Under the pieces are notes generated by a model that was given only the letters and a program-made list of their open reading frames with translations, searched no databases and was not told the DNA's origin. The translations under genes were made by a program, and so were the position numbers. A stretch of DNA of 64,000 bases from Arcobacter sp. (GTDB lineage: Bacteria; Campylobacterota; Campylobacteria; Campylobacterales; Arcobacteraceae), in the NCBI GenBank assembly GCA_020048055.1, contig JAIFNA010000003.1, positions 124,001 to 188,000 of the forward strand. Direction: 5' to 3'. Positions 48,209-56,955 of this stretch are shown here, piece by piece (the stretch's first letter is position 1; every line of letters begins with the position of its first letter).

Positions 48209-50551
48209 TTAATCCTTATCACATAAAATTGTATATGGACAAAATTCACAAACTTTCTTATCATCACACATAACGAAATCTACATTTGTTGTTTTAAGTG
48301 AGATTAAAATCTCATCTAATCTTTTTAATTTCCCCTCAAGTACAATTTCATCTTTGATTGTCCCACTATTTAAATCATAATACCCGACAACCGAAACACC
48401 AAGATTTTTTGATGCTAAGTAGTAAAATTCCAATTGAAAATCAACACTTTTCTCAATCGTTTTATCTGTATCAATTTTCAAATTTGAACCAGTTTTATAA
48501 TCCAAAATAGCAAATGTACCATCTTTTAATCTATCAATCCTATCGATTTTACCTTTTAGCACAACACCATTTTGTACTATTCTAAAATTTCGTTCAAGCT
48601 CAAATATCTCCACTCCAGACTCAATCCTAAGCATCTCGTTGTGAAAGAATTTTTTTATTCTTTTCTTCCAAAGTTCAAGTTCCAAAGTTAGATATGGGTT
48701 TATATTTTGATATGTTGAAATTTGATTTATAAACTCATCAAGTGTATATTTTTTACTTTTATAATTTTGCTCCAATATATTATGGATAATATTTCCAAGT
48801 TCAAAATTTTTTGGTTTTAGTGTAATATCATGTTCATTTAATTTTAGAATATATCCAAAATAATATTTTCGCTTACACTCCAAAAAGACTTTTAAGGAAG
48901 TTGCTGACCATTCGAGCTTACTAAGATCAATTTTTTTAGTTATCTCTTTTGGCGAAATCTCTTTTTTAATATTCTTGTAGATGATATTTGAAAAGTCTAC
49001 TTTTTGAATTTTTGGAGCTTCAAATAGTTCATTAATAAATCTACTCATAGTATTTTCCCTATTTGATACATATGCAATATCAACATATTTTCCATTATTA
49101 AAGAGCTTTTGATAGTAGTATTTTTGAAGATTTTCCCTATCTTGCGGTGTTGGAAGATTTGAGAATTTTTTTACATTTGTTGATATAAATTTATCTTTTG
49201 TACTTCTTTTTGGTACAACATTATCATTAAAATCAATCACGATAACACCATCAAATTTAGTGTGTCTTGTTTCAAGTATCCCCATTACAGTTACTTTTCC
49301 TGCTTTTACATCATCAATGGTTAATTGTGCTAGTTTTGTCATAAAAATTTTAAATCCATCTTTTAGTGACAATTCATTCAAAAGGAGATTGTTAAAAAAT
49401 AAATTTTCTATAAAGAATTTCAACTCCTCTAGGTGTTTCAAAATATCGGTGTTTTTTTCATCTTTTGAAATAAACTTAAATATTTCAAAAAAACTACTTT
49501 TTTCTATCGGTTTGTTCCAAATATTTCTAATCTTCTCATCAATATACGATTTATCAAGATTAAGATATTCAACCCTTTTTTGATGCTTAGGCTCATCTAT
49601 ATTTAGATAATTATTTATTGCACTTGAAACGGTATAAGTTTGAGAGTTTTTAATGTCGCTCCCCATTGCAAAATTAAAATATCCATCATCATCAAAAAAC
49701 TTAACATATTTAGAAAACTTTTCATCTGGCAAAATTAATACAATTTTGGACGCTTCAATCCCGTTATTTACCATTTTATTTATTGAATTTTTCACCATAC
49801 CTATTTGAGTTAATCTAGTTGGTATCTCATATATCTCAATAATTTGCTCCGCTTTTTGTGATGCTTCTTGTTTAATTATTGAATTATTTGAGATATCTAT
49901 CGTGTACAAATTTCCGCTTTTTAAAGATAAGCCAAGTGTTTCAAAAAGCTCAATATTTTTATAATTAAATCTATTGATTTCAACAATAATTTTAATATTT
50001 GTAATTTGCGCCATCTCTTTAATCGTAAAAAATTCAAATGATGAAAAAAATCCCTCATAAAAGATAGTAATCTTTGAAAATTCATCCAAGAACATACTAT
50101 TTATCTGATAATCAAGTGGTAGAGTTATGTTGTCACAAAGATTATTTTGCGCTAAAACATCAATATATTTTTTGTATATTTGATTAAGTAAATCAAGGTG
50201 TTCTGCGTAAAATCCGTAAGTATCATTTCTAGTTAAATCATCTATTGTTTTAAATTCACTGTTAAGTTCATTGAAAAATTTGAAAACATAATCACTTTGT
50301 AAATAAAGTTTTTCAAACTGATTGGAGAGTCCTAATTTTTTTATATCTATTTGTTCAATTGCCAGTTGAAGATAGATTATCCTTAAGTCTTTATCAATAT
50401 GTTTTTTATTTGGTGCCGGTAAAACTACTCGATTTAATAATTCACCTATTGTTATTAGTTTTGGTAAAAGCTGATTGGTAGTTTTTGATTTAGATATGTA
50501 CTCCCTGATTGAACGATTTGTAGGGAATACTAGAAGCTCTTTAGATAGCAT
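48209..50551 (-). CDS. AddB-like PD-(D/E)XK nuclease
   Basis: A 780-residue protein resembling AddB, the nuclease half of the AddAB double-strand break repair complex. The N-terminal two thirds form a degenerate helicase-like body (VFPTNRSIREYISK at the start, IVLILPDEKFSKY). The C-terminal PD-(D/E)XK nuclease domain has LSATSLKVFLEC-type LEWSATSLKVFLECKRKYYF, the catalytic stretch GKIDRIDRLKDGTFAILDYKTG, and a late cysteine group CEFCPYTILCDKD; with C583-type Cys in FLECKRK this looks like the four-cysteine iron-sulfur staple. No addA lies next to it in this window. It overlaps the FixH-like gene by 11 bases. Confidence 0.8.
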   Translation of the reverse strand: MLSKELLVFPTNRSIREYISKSKTTNQLLPKLITIGELLNRVVLPAPNKKHIDKDLRIIYLQLAIEQIDIKKLGLSNQFEKLYLQSDYVFKFFNELNSEFKTIDDLTRNDTYGFYAEHLDLLNQIYKKYIDVLAQNNLCDNITLPLDYQINSMFLDEFSKITIFYEGFFSSFEFFTIKEMAQITNIKIIVEINRFNYKNIELFETLGLSLKSGNLYTIDISNNSIIKQEASQKAEQIIEIYEIPTRLTQIGMVKNSINKMVNNGIEASKIVLILPDEKFSKYVKFFDDDGYFNFAMGSDIKNSQTYTVSSAINNYLNIDEPKHQKRVEYLNLDKSYIDEKIRNIWNKPIEKSSFFEIFKFISKDEKNTDILKHLEELKFFIENLFFNNLLLNELSLKDGFKIFMTKLAQLTIDDVKAGKVTVMGILETRHTKFDGVIVIDFNDNVVPKRSTKDKFISTNVKKFSNLPTPQDRENLQKYYYQKLFNNGKYVDIAYVSNRENTMSRFINELFEAPKIQKVDFSNIIYKNIKKEISPKEITKKIDLSKLEWSATSLKVFLECKRKYYFGYILKLNEHDITLKPKNFELGNIIHNILEQNYKSKKYTLDEFINQISTYQNINPYLTLELELWKKRIKKFFHNEMLRIESGVEIFELERNFRIVQNGVVLKGKIDRIDRLKDGTFAILDYKTGSNLKIDTDKTIEKSVDFQLEFYYLASKNLGVSVVGYYDLNSGTIKDEIVLEGKLKRLDEILISLKTTNVDFVMCDDKKVCEFCPYTILCDKD

Positions 50552-51095
50552 TTGTTTTTATATAAAAATTACCCGTTTCATTTGCGATTTTTATTTGACC
50601 CATAATATTCCAATAAGATTTTTTATTCAAATTCATCTCTTTAGATGACTCATTTGAATTTAACAAAATTTCTTGATTAAAGTCATGAGTTGAGGGCATT
50701 GTAAATAAAATTTTTGCCTCTATATTTTTAACAATCTCTTTTGTCATTTTATCTTTTACAACAACTGAGATATTATTTTTTCCAATATGTAAAATATCTT
50801 TTCTAATTTTTCTATTTTGGATAACTCTTTGAGATAAATATATATCATCGTATGTTAAAGAATTTTCAACAAAGTCATTAATTTTAATTTCAATATCATA
50901 CTTAGCTTCAAATTTCTGATTATTTAAAATAATTTTATTAAAATTTGCATCTACATCGTGGTAGTAGCCCATAAAAGTATTGTCATTATCTTTCCCAACG
51001 CCTGCACCTAATGTCATGGTGATTGTCCACGCAATTAAAGCTATACTAAATAAAAACTTTGCAATAAAAAGTGTATATATTGTTCTTTTACTCAT
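50541..51095 (-). CDS. FixH-like membrane protein
   Basis: A 184-residue protein with an N-terminal membrane helix (IYTLFIAKFLFSIALIAWTITMTLG, about 6-30) and a long periplasmic beta-rich domain. The turn GYYHDVDANFNKI matches the FixH pattern of a helix followed by Y-x-x-x-V-D/A-N and a domain for copper loading or assembly of cbb3 oxidase. Similarity is weak in the C-terminal half and no classical copper-binding cysteines are visible, so FixH is a likely but not secure name. It overlaps the TPM-domain gene by 8 bases and the AddB-like gene by 11, within the oxidase operon. Confidence 0.6.
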   Translation of the reverse strand: MSKRTIYTLFIAKFLFSIALIAWTITMTLGAGVGKDNDNTFMGYYHDVDANFNKIILNNQKFEAKYDIEIKINDFVENSLTYDDIYLSQRVIQNRKIRKDILHIGKNNISVVVKDKMTKEIVKNIEAKILFTMPSTHDFNQEILLNSNESSKEMNLNKKSYWNIMGQIKIANETGNFYIKTNAI

Positions 51096-51756
51096 TACTT
51101 TTAGCCTTTATCTTTTTCTCTCTCATAATAATAATAAAATATAAAATTATTCCAGCAACAACGAGTGTATACATAAATACTTTCCATATTGTACTTGCTG
51201 TTTTACCTTCACTTCCAATACTTGAAAGCAAACTAATTTGTTTGTGTTCTGCTATTACATCAGCTATTTGAGCATACCCATTCAAACTAGCTGCGCTAAC
51301 TTTAGAGCTTAAAAGATTTTTATCTTTTGCTGCTAAAAGAGGTATAACATATTCATCTAAAACACTATCCTTATCGACCACACTCGCGAGATCATCACTC
51401 ATGAGTATATTTGCATATTGCTGATCTAGTGCTATTGTTAATACAACAAAGGGCTTTGTTCCATTTAGGTCTTGTTTTACTTTTAAAATTAATTCATTTT
51501 CTTTTTGCTTCATTAGAGCTATTCTATCTTTTATTGGCAACTCTGGGTCTATTCCATTATCACCCTTTACATCAAGATATATGCTAGTTCCTAGTTTTGC
51601 TTTAGCTTCATCACCAATTGAATTAATCTTTTCATAAGCTCTTTGATCTATTAAACTTCCACTGTTTAAAATAAATTCGCTGCCGTTTAAATTTGAAATT
51701 AAAAAAAGAGATGCTAAAAGCACCCCTTTTCTAATATGTTGATACATATTATTCAT
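51088..51756 (-). CDS. TPM-domain membrane protein in the cbb3 operon
   Basis: A 222-residue exported protein with an N-terminal signal (MYQHIRKGVLLASLFLISNLNG), then a TPM (YgcG-like) periplasmic domain with GSLIDQRAYEKINSIGDEAKAKLGT and LKVKQDLNGTKPFVVLTIALDQQYANI, then one C-terminal membrane helix (about 192-212) and a Lys-rich end. TPM proteins are linked to photosystem repair and membrane protein quality control; the bacterial role is unclear. Start ATG 51756 is preferred to GTG 51759. It lies 3 bases after the 30-residue peptide gene and overlaps the FixH-like gene. Confidence 0.65.
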   Translation of the reverse strand: MNNMYQHIRKGVLLASLFLISNLNGSEFILNSGSLIDQRAYEKINSIGDEAKAKLGTSIYLDVKGDNGIDPELPIKDRIALMKQKENELILKVKQDLNGTKPFVVLTIALDQQYANILMSDDLASVVDKDSVLDEYVIPLLAAKDKNLLSSKVSAASLNGYAQIADVIAEHKQISLLSSIGSEGKTASTIWKVFMYTLVVAGIILYFIIIMREKKIKAKSNE

Positions 51757-51759
51757 CAC

Positions 51760-51852
51760 TTAACCAACAAAAACTCTAGTTGAGTCAAAAAATGATAAAT
51801 ATATTGTCGCGACTGCTGAAACCACCAATAACCATGCAATAATTTTTTCCAT
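51760..51852 (-). CDS. 30-residue single-helix membrane peptide in the cbb3 operon
   Basis: A very short gene: ATG at 51850-51852, stop TAA at 51760-51762, giving 30 residues that read MEKIIAWLLVVSAVATIYL and then SFFDSTRVFVG. One strong membrane helix covers about residues 4-22, followed by a polar tail. AAGGA precedes the ATG at the proper distance (AAATAAGGATATATT). It fills the 105-base gap between the DUF4006 gene (9 bases) and the TPM gene (3 bases), as real operon genes do. It resembles the single-helix subunits of haem-copper oxidases such as CcoQ/CcoH, and may be one, by inference. Confidence 0.7.
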   Translation of the reverse strand: MEKIIAWLLVVSAVATIYLSFFDSTRVFVG

Positions 51853-51861
51853 AATATATCC

Positions 51862-52092
51862 TTATTTTTCAGTTCGCATCGTATGATTTTCTGTGCTATT
51901 CATCTTCAGCCCAGTTAAATCCTGATTGATTGTGTAATATTTTTCAGCATTGTCTTTTTGTGCAGCAATACCAAAATATGTCAAACCACCTAAAATACTT
52001 AAAAGTAATACTACGGCTACTAAATATCCAGTAATACCATGAAGGGCGAATAAGCCCCTTTCTGATTCATGCATCTCTTTATTTAAACCCAT
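51862..52092 (-). CDS. DUF4006 family protein
   Basis: A 76-residue protein of the DUF4006 family, known essentially from Campylobacterota. It has a short polar head (GLNKEMHESERGLFALHGITG), one membrane helix at about residues 22-43 (YLVAVVLLLSILGGLTYFGIAA) and a polar tail with TINQDLTGLKMNST. It sits 2 bases after ccoP and is a usual member of the ccoNOQP operon in this phylum. Its role in the oxidase is unknown; as an abundant single-helix protein it could be an accessory subunit. Confidence 0.85.
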   Translation of the reverse strand: MGLNKEMHESERGLFALHGITGYLVAVVLLLSILGGLTYFGIAAQKDNAEKYYTINQDLTGLKMNSTENHTMRTEK

Positions 52093-52094
52093 AA

Positions 52095-52988
52095 TTATTT
52101 CCCCCCTATGCTTCTAATATATTCTGCTACACCTTTAACTTGTGTCTCAGAAAGTCTTCCAGCAAAACTTGGCATAGCACCAATAATACCTTTTTTACCA
52201 TCATGTAATACAGATACCATTAAATCGTCATTGTAAGACACTAAACTAGGTGCTACCATTGGCATACCAGCTCCATCTTCACCATGACATGAGCTACAAC
52301 TTGCCCATGAAGCAGGTTTTTCACCTTTTAATCCACCAGCAACATAAGCAGCTAAAGCGTCAACATCAGCACCACTTGCCATTCCAGCAGGCATTCCACC
52401 AGGGTAAGCAGTTTTGAAATTATTTGCACCATTATTGATTACATTAACAACTTGCTCTTTTGAGATTCTTTTTGTTAAATCATGTGCTTTTCCATTGCTT
52501 CCGTCTGCTTCAACACCATGACAAGGAGCACATTGCACAAGATACACAGATTCTCCCATTGCTCTAAGTCCAGCAGCATCAATGTTTTTATTTTTCTCTT
52601 CAAATTTAGCTTGATATTCTAGTGTTTCTTCATTCCATTGACCAATTTGTGAAAATTGATTTGTTGGATAACCAACAAAGAAATACCAAAACATCCAAAT
52701 TATTGAGCCAATAAAAATTAATCCCCAACCAGCTGGAATTGGATTTGTATATTCTCCAATTCCATCCCAATTCTCTTCAACAAGCTCACCACCTGCTTTA
52801 TCATTTTTCATTTGATTAACATATTTTAATACTGTCATAGTTGAGATTGTAATTATCGCCAACCCAGCAAGCATAGTTAAATCGTTTATATAATCCTCAC
52901 CAAGACTAAAAGAGTCACCCGCTACGAAGTAAGTTCCTGTCATTAGTGCTACGATAAGGATCATTCCACCTATTACCATAGATTTCAT
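52095..52988 (-). CDS. ccoP: cbb3 cytochrome c oxidase subunit III (dihaem)
   Basis: CcoP carries two c-type haems that feed electrons to CcoO and CcoN. The 297-residue product has membrane helices near residues 4-24, 36-54 and 88-106, and then a periplasmic part with haem motifs CAPCH (153-157) and CSSCH (231-235). Distal Met ligands are likely in GGMPAGMASG and GAMPSFAG. The extra N-terminal helices are the Campylobacterota form; other phyla often have one. It lies 15 bases after ccoQ and 2 before DUF4006. Confidence 0.95.
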   Translation of the reverse strand: MKSMVIGGMILIVALMTGTYFVAGDSFSLGEDYINDLTMLAGLAIITISTMTVLKYVNQMKNDKAGGELVEENWDGIGEYTNPIPAGWGLIFIGSIIWMFWYFFVGYPTNQFSQIGQWNEETLEYQAKFEEKNKNIDAAGLRAMGESVYLVQCAPCHGVEADGSNGKAHDLTKRISKEQVVNVINNGANNFKTAYPGGMPAGMASGADVDALAAYVAGGLKGEKPASWASCSSCHGEDGAGMPMVAPSLVSYNDDLMVSVLHDGKKGIIGAMPSFAGRLSETQVKGVAEYIRSIGGK

Positions 52989-53003: not shown

Positions 53004-53216
53004 TTATTCTTTGTCACTCTTGTTTGGTTCCAATGGTTTAGTATCAATACTATCATTAAGTACTAGGTCTGAATATTTTTCAAAATCCCTCTCACCATTT
53101 TTTTGTCGTTTATATATAGAATAAGCATAGCTATAAAATATTACAAATACAAACAATGTTATAAAAAATTTTGCGTAACCTTGTATTGTTAATAAAGTTT
53201 CTTGATCTAAATCCAT
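53004..53216 (-). CDS. ccoQ: cbb3 oxidase subunit CcoQ
   Basis: A 70-residue protein with one membrane helix at about residues 11-32 and a basic polar tail (YKRQKNGERDFEKYSDLV). CcoQ stabilises the assembled oxidase in other bacteria. Order ccoN-O-Q-P, size and the 13-base gap to ccoO and 15-base gap to ccoP all support it. Confidence 0.85.
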   Translation of the reverse strand: MDLDQETLLTIQGYAKFFITLFVFVIFYSYAYSIYKRQKNGERDFEKYSDLVLNDSIDTKPLEPNKSDKE

Positions 53217-53229
53217 TTTTAATAACCTT

Positions 53230-53895
53230 TTATTTTAAAGAGTTCATATAAGCAATAATTGCAACAATTTCAGGAATCTTACCAGCAGCTACTGCATCTT
53301 TAACATCTTGATCTTTCATATCAGCAGCTATTAGTTTAGCTTCTTCTAAAGCACTAGCTTTAGCTTCGTCAATTGAACCTAATTTTGGCATACCTTCTTT
53401 GTCATATGGAACACCAAATACATTTTTAACTGTCACGGCTTCAGCATATGCAGTATCTACATCAGCAATGTTTGTAAACTGATGAGAATAAGCTGGCATA
53501 ACTGTACCAGGTACAACTTCAGATGGTGCCTTCATATGATTTTCATGCCAATCAGTAGTTCTGTAATTTCCAACTCTCATAAGATCTGGTCCAGTTCTTT
53601 TTGATCCCCATAAAAATGGTCTATCATAAGCATACTCACCACTTAAAGAATACATACCATATCTATCTGTTTCAGATTTAAATGGTCTAATTAATTGCGA
53701 GTGGCAAGCATTACAGCTATCCTTGATATATACATGTCTTCCAGCAAGCTCCAACATACTATATGGTTTTGCACCAACAGTTGGTTGAGATTGTTTGCTA
53801 AAATCAGGTATAACTTCTATAATACCTGCAAATGCAACTGTTAAAAATAACGCAACTGCGAAGAAAAACGGTCTTTGTTCTAACCAATGAAACAT
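53230..53895 (-). CDS. ccoO: cbb3 oxidase subunit II (monohaem)
   Basis: CcoO holds one c-type haem between CcoP and the catalytic subunit. The 221-residue product has an N-terminal membrane anchor (FFFAVALFLTVAFAGIIEVIP, about 9-30) and the haem motif CNACHSQLIRPF (61-72), followed by the family block WGSKRTGPDLMRVG near residue 95-108 and PGTVMPAYSH with the distal Met. It starts 18 bases after ccoN. Confidence 0.96.
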   Translation of the reverse strand: MFHWLEQRPFFFAVALFLTVAFAGIIEVIPDFSKQSQPTVGAKPYSMLELAGRHVYIKDSCNACHSQLIRPFKSETDRYGMYSLSGEYAYDRPFLWGSKRTGPDLMRVGNYRTTDWHENHMKAPSEVVPGTVMPAYSHQFTNIADVDTAYAEAVTVKNVFGVPYDKEGMPKLGSIDEAKASALEEAKLIAADMKDQDVKDAVAAGKIPEIVAIIAYMNSLK

Positions 53896-53913: not shown

Positions 53914-55383
53914 TTAAGCGCCCATAGGCGAAGCATTAGCTGGTTCTTTTGTAAGAACTCGTCCAGCAGTAGCAGTTTTATACATATTGTAAGCCCACAT
54001 AAATACACCGATAAGATACAGCAATCCGCCAACAGCTCTAATTGTGTAGTAAGGATGTAATACTTCAACTGTATCAATAAATGAATAAACTAATGAACCA
54101 TACTCATCATAAGCTCTCCACATCATACCTTGAGTTATACCTGCGATCCACATAGATGTAAAGTAAAGTACGATTGCAACTGTTTGAATCCAAAATTGTG
54201 TTTCAAGTAAAGATTTAGAGTAAATCTCTCTTTTGTACATTCTTGGAGCCATATGTAATAAAGCAGCCATAACCATAAATACAACCCAACCAAGTACACC
54301 ATCATGTACATGTCCTGGAATCCAGTCTGTAAAGTGTGCAATAGCATTAACAGATTTTATAGCTTGAATTGGACCTTCTATTGTTGATAACATATAGAAT
54401 GTAGAAGCCATAACCATAAATTTAATCAATGGATTTGTTTGTAATTGTCCCCATTCACCTTTCATTGTAAGAAGCATATTAATAGCAGATCCCCAAGATG
54501 GTAAAATTAAAACAACAGACATAACAGAACCCATAGTTTGCATCCAATCTGGAACTGTACTATAGATAACATGGTGTCCACCAGCCCATAAATAAACAAA
54601 CATTAAACCCCAGAATGCAAGCATAGAAAGTTTATATGAATAAACATTTTGCCCTGATTCTTTTGGAAGAAAATAATAAATAATTGCAATAATAGGTGTT
54701 GTAAACACGAATGCAACAGCATTATGTCCATACCACCATTGAACTAGTGCATCATTTGTACCTGCATACATAGAAACCGAGTGTAACACAGAACCGTGTC
54801 CACCAGAAGCAAAATATGTTGGAATTTCCATATTGTTAAATAGATAAAGCATAGCAACTGCTAAGAATGAAGACATATAGTACCAAACAGAAACATACAA
54901 TGTTCTCTCTCTTCTAATACCAATCATACCAAACATAGCAACACCCCAAAGAACCCACCAAACAACAACTAGTAAATCCAATGGCCATTCTAGTTCAGCG
55001 TATTCTTTTGAAGTTGTAATACCACTTAATAAAGTAACTACTGCAAGTAAAATAGTAATGAAATAAAGTGCAAAATGTAATTTTGCAACTCCCATTAAAA
55101 ATGGGGACTCTTTAAGTGAAACCTTAAGAACCCTTTGTCCTACATAGTACCAAGTAGCAAATATTCCACTTAGTGTAAAACCAAAAGCAACACCATTTGT
55201 GTGTAAAGGTCTTAATCTACTAAATGTACCGTACTCTCCAGCTAAATTACTTAAAGCTGGAAATGCAAGTTGAAATGCAAGTATAACACCAACTGTCATA
55301 CCTATAATTCCAAACAGAATTGTGGCAAAAGTAAAAGCTTTTGCAATCGAGTAGTCATACTCAATTTGTGCACTGTTTTGCAT
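53914..55383 (-). CDS. ccoN: cbb3 oxidase catalytic subunit I
   Basis: CcoN reduces oxygen at a haem b3-CuB centre and pumps protons with high oxygen affinity, which suits a microaerophile. The 489-residue product has about 12 membrane helices. I see FGFTLSGIFATWYYVGQRV with LHTNGVAF at the first haem ligand, WWYGHNAVAFVFTTPI carrying CuB His, and WAGGHHVIYSTVPDWMQ and DWIPGHVHDGVLGWV with further His ligands. The ATG at 55383 is chosen because AGGAGGATATTG precedes it; the upstream ATG at 55413 has no such site. First gene of a ten-gene operon to 47901. Confidence 0.96.
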   Translation of the reverse strand: MQNSAQIEYDYSIAKAFTFATILFGIIGMTVGVILAFQLAFPALSNLAGEYGTFSRLRPLHTNGVAFGFTLSGIFATWYYVGQRVLKVSLKESPFLMGVAKLHFALYFITILLAVVTLLSGITTSKEYAELEWPLDLLVVVWWVLWGVAMFGMIGIRRERTLYVSVWYYMSSFLAVAMLYLFNNMEIPTYFASGGHGSVLHSVSMYAGTNDALVQWWYGHNAVAFVFTTPIIAIIYYFLPKESGQNVYSYKLSMLAFWGLMFVYLWAGGHHVIYSTVPDWMQTMGSVMSVVLILPSWGSAINMLLTMKGEWGQLQTNPLIKFMVMASTFYMLSTIEGPIQAIKSVNAIAHFTDWIPGHVHDGVLGWVVFMVMAALLHMAPRMYKREIYSKSLLETQFWIQTVAIVLYFTSMWIAGITQGMMWRAYDEYGSLVYSFIDTVEVLHPYYTIRAVGGLLYLIGVFMWAYNMYKTATAGRVLTKEPANASPMGA

Positions 55384-55616
55384 CAATATCCTCCTAAAAT
55401 AAAATAAAGTCACAATAATATAAATACAACCGTAACTTATCGCTCGGATTTTATCAACTCTTGTGTTAAATGAAACTGAAAAGTGTAATTATTTATTAAA
55501 AGTTATTTGTAAGTTTAATAAGGGGTAGGTGCTAATTAAATGTAACTATTTTATAATCTAATATTAAGAAATGTTGTAATAATATACATAAAAATTAGAA
55601 CTCTTAGGGGATAAAA
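55384..55616. other. Divergent promoter region between ccoN and the first FlgO-like gene
   Basis: A 233-base AT-rich gap without a gene. On the minus strand a strong AGGAGG leads ccoN, with AT-rich possible -10 elements (TATATT, TATTTATAT) upstream. On the plus strand AGGGG precedes the first FlgO-like gene, after TATAATCTAATATT near 55552. I found no full FNR-type palindrome; TTGATAAAATCC near 55450 is only a half match. Confidence 0.4.
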
Positions 55617-56285
55617 ATGTACAAACTACTATCACAATCTTTTTGCTCTGGACTATTTGTTGTTTTATTTTTGCAAGGCTGTAATCACAATACAATTGTA
55701 ATTCCAAAAGAAAAAGCAAGCACTAGCGAACTATACTACACAATAAATGATGCAATTATCTCTCTTTCCAATCAATTATCAAAAAATAATACTTTGTTAT
55801 TGAAAGATACAGGAACAATTACCGTAACTTCATTTGTTGACCTAGAGCAGTTAAATAAAACAAGTCAATTCGGTAGAGTAATTGGCGAATCATTGTTTAG
55901 CGAACTGTTTATTAGAGGCTTTAATGTTTCAGATTTTAGAGGTCAAAATGCAATAACAATTAATGCAAATGGAGAATTTTATATAACAAGAAATATTACA
56001 ATGCTTCAAAGTGAAGTATCCAATACATATATCTTGGTTGGAACATACTCAAAAATTGACCAAAATATAATCATTAATGCAAGAATATTAGACAACAAAA
56101 CAGGTAAAATTGTAAGTTCCGGAAGAGTAATGTATGCAAATGATGATTGTAGTATATTTAATATGTGCAATAATGCCCAAAGAAAAATAAAACTTGTTTC
56201 TGATGACTATAAACACTCAAGTGAAGAAAAAACCTTAAAAGAATCATCCGAAGATACTATGCCGATTAGAAAAATTAAATTCTAA
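55617..56285 (+). CDS. FlgO-family outer-membrane lipoprotein 1
   Basis: A 222-residue lipoprotein. The signal ends in LFLQGC with the lipid-linked Cys at 22. The FlgO domain follows: TITVTSFVDLEQLNKTSQFGRVIGESLF, LFIRGFNVSDFRGQNAI, then FYITRNI and YILVGTYSKIDQNIIINARILD near residue 130-160. FlgO proteins sit in the outer membrane; in Vibrio FlgO is needed for normal flagellar motility. Here there are no flagellar neighbours. It is the first of three tandem relatives and has an AGGGGAT ribosome site. Confidence 0.82.
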   Translation: MYKLLSQSFCSGLFVVLFLQGCNHNTIVIPKEKASTSELYYTINDAIISLSNQLSKNNTLLLKDTGTITVTSFVDLEQLNKTSQFGRVIGESLFSELFIRGFNVSDFRGQNAITINANGEFYITRNITMLQSEVSNTYILVGTYSKIDQNIIINARILDNKTGKIVSSGRVMYANDDCSIFNMCNNAQRKIKLVSDDYKHSSEEKTLKESSEDTMPIRKIKF

Positions 56286-56328: not shown

Positions 56329-56955
56329 ATGAGGATTGCTAATCTTATTTTCCCCTCTATTGTATATCTGATTTTTGCAGGCTGTACTACACAATCACAA
56401 AGTATCAATTCAAATTACAAATCATCTACATTTTCTTTTTTTGTTGACAAAAGGTTTAGTGACCTTGATAAAGCCGTTTCAGAAATTTCAAGTCAACTAT
56501 TATTAAATATTCCATCAGTAGCTCAAAAACAAAATAAATTTATTATCACTACATTTGTAGACCTTCATACTTTAGCAAAAACATCTCCTATCGGGAGAAC
56601 TATATCTGAGTCTCTTATAGATGAGATGCATTCAAAAAAATTTAAAATTATTGATTTTAGAACTCAAGAGGTGATTACTGTAAATGAAAATGGGGAGTTT
56701 TTACTGTCAAGAAATCTTTCCAAACTAAAAGATGAAGTTCCAGAAGCACTTATTGTTGTTGGCACATACTCACTTATAGATGAAAACACTATGGTTTTAA
56801 ATGGAAGAATTATGGACACATTTACATCAGATGTTATTTCTACAGCTAAAGTTATCTACACTTTTAAAGACTGTAACGAATTTGATTTATGTAAAAAGTC
56901 TGAAAAACCAAAAATAACACCGCCTTCCCAAATAAAAATATTGGAAGATAAATGA
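56329..56955 (+). CDS. FlgO-family outer-membrane lipoprotein 2
   Basis: A 208-residue lipoprotein with lipobox LIFAGC (Cys 19). The FlgO domain is the closest relative of gene 1: FIITTFVDLHTLAKTSPIGRTISESLIDEM, KIIDFRTQEVITVNENGEFLLSRNLSKLKDEV, and LIVVGTYSLIDENTMVLNGRIMD. The shared order and matching sequence point to duplication. It is separated by 43 bases from gene 1 and overlaps gene 3 by 4 bases (ATGA), so 2 and 3 are coupled. A hairpin hides its ribosome site. Confidence 0.82.
   Translation: MRIANLIFPSIVYLIFAGCTTQSQSINSNYKSSTFSFFVDKRFSDLDKAVSEISSQLLLNIPSVAQKQNKFIITTFVDLHTLAKTSPIGRTISESLIDEMHSKKFKIIDFRTQEVITVNENGEFLLSRNLSKLKDEVPEALIVVGTYSLIDENTMVLNGRIMDTFTSDVISTAKVIYTFKDCNEFDLCKKSEKPKITPPSQIKILEDK

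Follow-up and report, generated by a model that had tools for sequence, protein, structure and literature searches.

A conserved single-helix peptide encoded in the cbb3 oxidase operon of Arcobacter sp., a putative orthologue of Campylobacter jejuni CcoY

Microaerophiles such as Campylobacter and Helicobacter have the cbb3 enzyme as their high-affinity oxidase. The window, by which we mean the whole 64,000-nucleotide stretch of Arcobacter sp. DNA that was analysed, carries an operon for this oxidase on its minus strand. It begins with ccoN (53914-55413; COX1, E 3.5e-106, and a phmmer match to a solved cbb3 subunit N), followed by ccoO (53230-53895; FixO, 6.9e-82), ccoQ (53004-53216; TIGR02736, 7.4e-18, above the cut-off) and ccoP (52095-52988), the product of which has two haem-c domains (FixP_N, 1.5e-15; Cytochrome_CBB3, 1.6e-21). 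Downstream lies ccoX (51862-52092), which encodes a 76-aa DUF4006 protein (PF13179, Pfam E 3.1e-26), and then a small ORF, here called ccoY (51760-51852), encoding a 30-aa single-helix peptide, MEKIIAWLLVVSAVATIYLSFFDSTRVFVG. The following gene (51088-51759, 223 aa) gave no confident match in a Pfam scan and was recognised as a ccoZ homologue with a ccoZ profile built from other families (E 2.4e-44). The last gene (50541-51095) is probably ccoH, judged by its position and by weak similarity to the ccoH of a C. jejuni-like genome (24% identity over 107 columns, E 0.002, in a single BLASTP comparison). All these genes are read from the minus strand, and the order ccoN-O-Q-P-X-Y-Z-H matches that of the C. 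jejuni-like locus L208.

On either side of the operon there are other genes. Two adjacent paralogues with a FlgO domain (PF17680, 1.4e-33 and 4e-30) lie on the plus strand at 55617-56285 and 56329-56955, divergent from the cbb3 operon. Directly 3' of ccoH, at 48209-50551 on the minus strand, is the gene for a 780-aa protein with a PD-(D/E)XK nuclease domain (3.4e-31); a 779-aa gene occupies the corresponding place at locus L124. In C. jejuni, ccoH is adjoined by cj1482c, whose product has been described as perhaps a DNA helicase (PMC8267372).

The initial annotation had proposed a 30-residue membrane peptide at 51760-51852 and left its strand unstated. The ORF does exist and is on the minus strand, where 30 codons and a TAA run from 51852 to 51760; the plus-strand frame at the same positions is interrupted by stops and is not open. 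The AAGGA site mentioned in that annotation is also present, at 51859-51863 on the minus strand, 6 nt 5' of the ATG, as a Shine-Dalgarno sequence overlapping the TAA of ccoX. The gene is tightly packed: 9 nt separate the ccoX stop from ccoY, and the next ORF begins 0 nt after ccoY if its GTG is counted and 3 nt after it if its ATG is taken. The 19-residue hydropathy of the helix reaches a maximum of 2.3. The peptide had been described as lying next to ccoP, and here the description needs correction, as ccoX (DUF4006) stands in between.

ORFs of this size are common in the window, which holds 302 of 25-40 aa, and for this reason we rejected any argument from a bare 30-aa ORF. The same number is what would speak for ccoY being a chance open reading frame. 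Among the 302, however, only ccoY combines an ATG and a Shine-Dalgarno sequence with a helix of such hydrophobicity. When the 746 ORFs of the window were searched with a profile built without sequences of family f1, to which the window peptide itself belongs, ccoY ranked first (E 6e-10; the runner-up had 0.54), and its score with this profile exceeded that of all 5000 shuffles of its own sequence. Selection was examined in a set of 30 sequences, 29 of them distinct, consisting of the window sequence and 29 relatives found by tblastn. All 30 have an ATG, 30 codons and a stop, with AAGG upstream in every one. The uncorrected pN/pS in the reading frame was 0.39, whereas the two shifted frames gave 0.91 and 1.58 and the antisense strand 0.87; the ratio is biased downward by the choice of relatives through protein similarity, and the comparison between frames uses the same sequences. 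Differences fell on codon positions 1, 2 and 3 in proportions of 32, 18 and 50%. It is clear that ccoY is a real coding sequence under purifying selection. This codon-level selection and the phylum-wide conservation described below already refute a chance origin, to which we give practically no credence.

Conservation at the same position in relatives was the test set beforehand for the initial annotation. We collected 89 ccoX loci from 89 genomes of 11 families, namely the locus of the genome that holds the window, those of the best 30 ccoX matches and 58 chosen to span genera; the picker demanded a hydrophobic ORF of fewer than 60 aa starting between -30 and +70 from the ccoX stop. An ORF of 29-41 aa with one hydrophobic helix was found 3' of ccoX in 84 of the 89 loci, so that non-conservation is clearly excluded. 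It starts at -29 to +18 nt relative to the ccoX stop in 83 loci and at +66 in one. Among the misses, the contig of L063 stops 233 nt past ccoX, and in L065, L075, L097 and L071 another gene, which we take from its sequence to be ccoG-like, follows ccoX directly; in each of these four loci the small ORF comes immediately behind the ccoG-like gene and ahead of ccoZ. A search of named loci (the best 80 of 268) gave a CcoY match with E <1e-3 in 78 of the 80. Of the exceptions, L180 lies where the contig runs out after just 65 nt, and L186 contains a recognisable candidate (E 0.0017). The idea of a conserved single-helix protein of the cbb3 operon was thus borne out.

We noticed a ccoG-like gene of about 480 aa, polyferredoxin-like by sequence, between ccoX and ccoY at loci L120, L121, L122 and L123. 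The insertion was seen in family f8 (genera g25 and g36) and in one of the two f11 loci that were read; because of it, genes for copper handling and genes for subunits are mixed there.

The family consensus opens with [ED]K, continues through a hydrophobic stretch in which A and T/S are conserved to a W or Y, and closes at the extreme C-terminus with V-x-T-P-N-H-L-[FY]-[VI]-G; the consensus of the whole C-terminal end is W-x-V-x-T-P-N-H-L-[FY]-[VI]-G-COOH. The window peptide ends in S-F-F-D-S-T-R-V-F-V-G, and the Arcobacteraceae type has approximately [FY]xDxx[RK][VI][FY][VI]G in place of TPNHL[FY][VI]G. In family f2, which is presumably Helicobacter-like, the TPNHL motif is mostly lost and CcoY ends in sequences like FIPDMFLHLV, with position and length kept (loci between L064 and L119); the altered C-terminus may possibly reflect a change of contact surface. 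These f2 sequences were aligned by position in our 30-row alignment, A1. Family f3 appears to be Campylobacter-like, as judged from a primer match at locus L024. Scans of the window peptide against Pfam and NCBIfam gave no family at E<=10. With the 30 rows of A1, one row per Pfam/NCBIfam family was matched (best E 0.0058 / 0.0016), and these matches were taken as chance. Weak matches of the ccoX profile to the PDB, the best of them (0.0053) to an unrelated calcium channel, were likewise taken as chance. A gene missed by gene callers had been suspected, and the suspicion holds in that no Pfam or NCBIfam model matches the peptide; it fails in that the annotation of C. jejuni includes the counterpart, cj1485c. 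With no such model in the releases searched, CcoY would be missing from structural models of the enzyme and from its annotation.

The distribution of the gene was followed in 397 genomes of the phylum Campylobacterota. A plain tblastn with the peptide gave matches in 92 of the 397 at E<=10, and outside family f1 all of them were above 0.01 except that in G392; profiles and position were therefore used, plain tblastn being too weak beyond f1. The ccoX gene was found in 380 genomes. A CcoY profile match at E<=1e-3 was obtained in 352, all of which carry ccoX, and 31 further genomes had a match between 1e-3 and 1, some of these by chance. Scores above 1e-3 were given by 28 ccoX-positive genomes, mostly of family f2; when six of them (G016, G046, G048, G070, G158 and G231) were read by position, the ORF was there in all six. 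None of the 17 genomes without ccoX had CcoY at 1e-3. In these 17, the only genomes in which ccoN was searched, 15 had no ccoN match, and in the other two (G229 and G388) ccoN lies close to a contig end.

The bc1 gene qcrB (PF00033) was detected in 384 of the 397 genomes. CcoY at 1e-3 occurred in none of the six genomes with qcrB but with neither ccoN nor ccoX, a narrow test since nearly all the other genomes carry qcrB. Four genomes in which qcrB was not detected keep both ccoX and CcoY; all four are multi-contig assemblies. The presence of CcoY tracks the oxidase gene ccoN and not qcrB. Related genomes are not independent, and for this reason a Fisher value was left unused.

In C. jejuni, cj1485c encodes a protein of 33 residues with a central helix and lies between ccoX (cj1486c) and ccoZ (cj1484c) (PMC8267372). 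Nine of nine primers taken from that study have exact matches at locus L024, where the two for the cj1485c deletion flank the 33-aa ORF. Sequence homology of the window peptide with the Cj1485 family was found by way of intermediates, with E 1.2e-6 for a profile lacking f1, f2 and L082. The profile of the Campylobacter family f3 alone still ranked the window peptide first of the 746 ORFs, with E 0.0084 and 11.5 bits, barely above the 10.1 bits of the best of 5000 shuffles. Because direct similarity to Campylobacter is weak, the orthology rests on the intermediate families and on gene order. By synteny and profile we identify the window ORF as ccoY, the orthologue of cj1485c: both genes lie between ccoX and ccoZ, their products (30 and 33 aa) have one helix, and a profile is shared through intermediates, although identity in A1 is 31% and the function was assayed in C. 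jejuni only.

What is known of the C. jejuni gene comes mostly from the same study. Deletion of cj1485c significantly lowered oxidase activity without abolishing it, added copper did not rescue the activity of the mutant, and the gene was named ccoY; cj1486c (ccoX) is essential for the activity (PMC8267372). Elsewhere, cj1485c is listed as a down-regulated 'putative periplasmic protein' (PMC7099621). Among open-licence PMC papers, as far as their accessible text goes, the name ccoY was found in PMC8267372 only. The new subunit that the initial annotation had suggested is therefore not new, since its counterpart CcoY/Cj1485 has already been published (PMC8267372). To what was known of the gene we add its phylum-wide distribution, the C-terminal motif and its association with ccoN and not with qcrB, which were not found in print in open-licence PMC papers. 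The alignment, the motif and the co-occurrence extend the result from one organism, C. jejuni, to a general form that can be tested in harmless relatives.

Other small proteins of terminal oxidases offer a comparison. CcoM of Pseudomonas stutzeri is an extra single-helix cbb3 subunit (PMC8267372) and, with 36 aa (PMC10433244), similar in size to CcoY. A search of the PDB with the CcoY profile gave no chain at E<=10, in a library from which the CcoM chain may be absent. CioY of C. jejuni (34 aa) and CydX of E. coli are also small one-helix partners of terminal oxidases that annotation often misses (PMC11955535), but CioY partners the bd-type CioAB and is encoded 3' of cydB, whereas CcoY belongs to the cbb3 operon, and the locus sets them apart. 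CcoQ (FixQ) is a small membrane subunit encoded in the same operon as CcoY. Identity of ccoY with CcoQ/FixQ was ruled out, as there was no FixQ or TIGR02736 match at E<=10 and the window has a ccoQ of its own.

We consider it very probable that the ORF is an orthologue of ccoY and that its product is a one-helix membrane peptide acting as an accessory subunit in stabilising or assembling the oxidase. CcoY would sit in the inner membrane with its charged N-terminal [ED]K end probably in the cytoplasm, as the charge suggests, and its conserved C-terminal end probably at the periplasmic face. Together with CcoX it would most likely pack against CcoNOQP, and it may stabilise the active oxidase or help to assemble it in the way CcoM does in Pseudomonas; CcoZ may connect the oxidase with bc1. 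In the cbb3 oxidases of Campylobacterota, CcoY is most likely an accessory subunit with a single helix. A further proposal, which we advance tentatively and with somewhat more doubt than confidence, is that CcoY, with CcoX and CcoZ, is a universal stoichiometric core subunit defining a distinct Campylobacterota cbb3 type, CcoNOQPXYZH, the Helicobacter-like enzymes included, and that TPNHL[FY][VI]G-COOH docks on the periplasmic cytochrome domains and is needed for the enzyme's stability.

The main rival to an accessory subunit is a transient assembly factor that would act, for example, in copper or haem insertion or in CcoP docking and would be left outside the finished oxidase. In PMC8267372, the proteins listed from mass spectrometry of C. 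jejuni native bands are CcoN, O, P, H, Z and X, and CcoY is not among them; this absence would fit such a factor, as would the lowered rather than abolished activity of the deletion mutant and the fact that in four loci ccoX is separated from ccoY by ccoG, an assembly gene related to copper. However, a hydrophobic peptide that trypsin can cut at one or two sites is probably easily missed, so that its absence from the list says little, and the failure of copper to restore activity in the cj1485c mutant (PMC8267372) argues against a role of this kind, which we regard as possible, at well below even chances. A function of CcoY chiefly as a bridge, joining the oxidase to bc1 (Qcr) in a supercomplex with CcoX and CcoZ, seems to us less probable again and on the whole unlikely. 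Such a role is proposed for CcoXYZ in PMC8267372, where CcoZ and CcoX shared a band with Qcr and Cco proteins, yet CcoY was missing from all six genomes that have qcrB without ccoN and ccoX, and the four multi-contig genomes without detected qcrB kept it along with ccoX.

It might also be supposed that the ORF merely couples translation of ccoX to that of ccoZ and that the C. jejuni phenotype is polar. The tight junctions on either side and the Shine-Dalgarno sequence overlapping the ccoX stop would suit a coupler, and the deletion may have acted through polarity on ccoZ or ccoH, because complementation of the cj1485c mutant was not found in the available text of PMC8267372. A mere coupler is nevertheless very unlikely, since purifying selection acts on the amino-acid sequence, the C-terminal motif is conserved, and the ORF stays beside ccoZ where ccoG splits ccoY from ccoX.

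Some genomes showed further copies or unexpected types of the gene. G336 and G373 have two copies of ccoX each, with a second CcoY next to the second ccoX, which suggests a second cbb3 operon that retained the small genes. Two genomes that by placement or by name belong to a different family have a CcoY of the Arcobacteraceae type, at L082 (G392, family f4) and at L136 (Sulfurovum sp. bin170); either the whole operon was transferred or the contigs were mis-binned.
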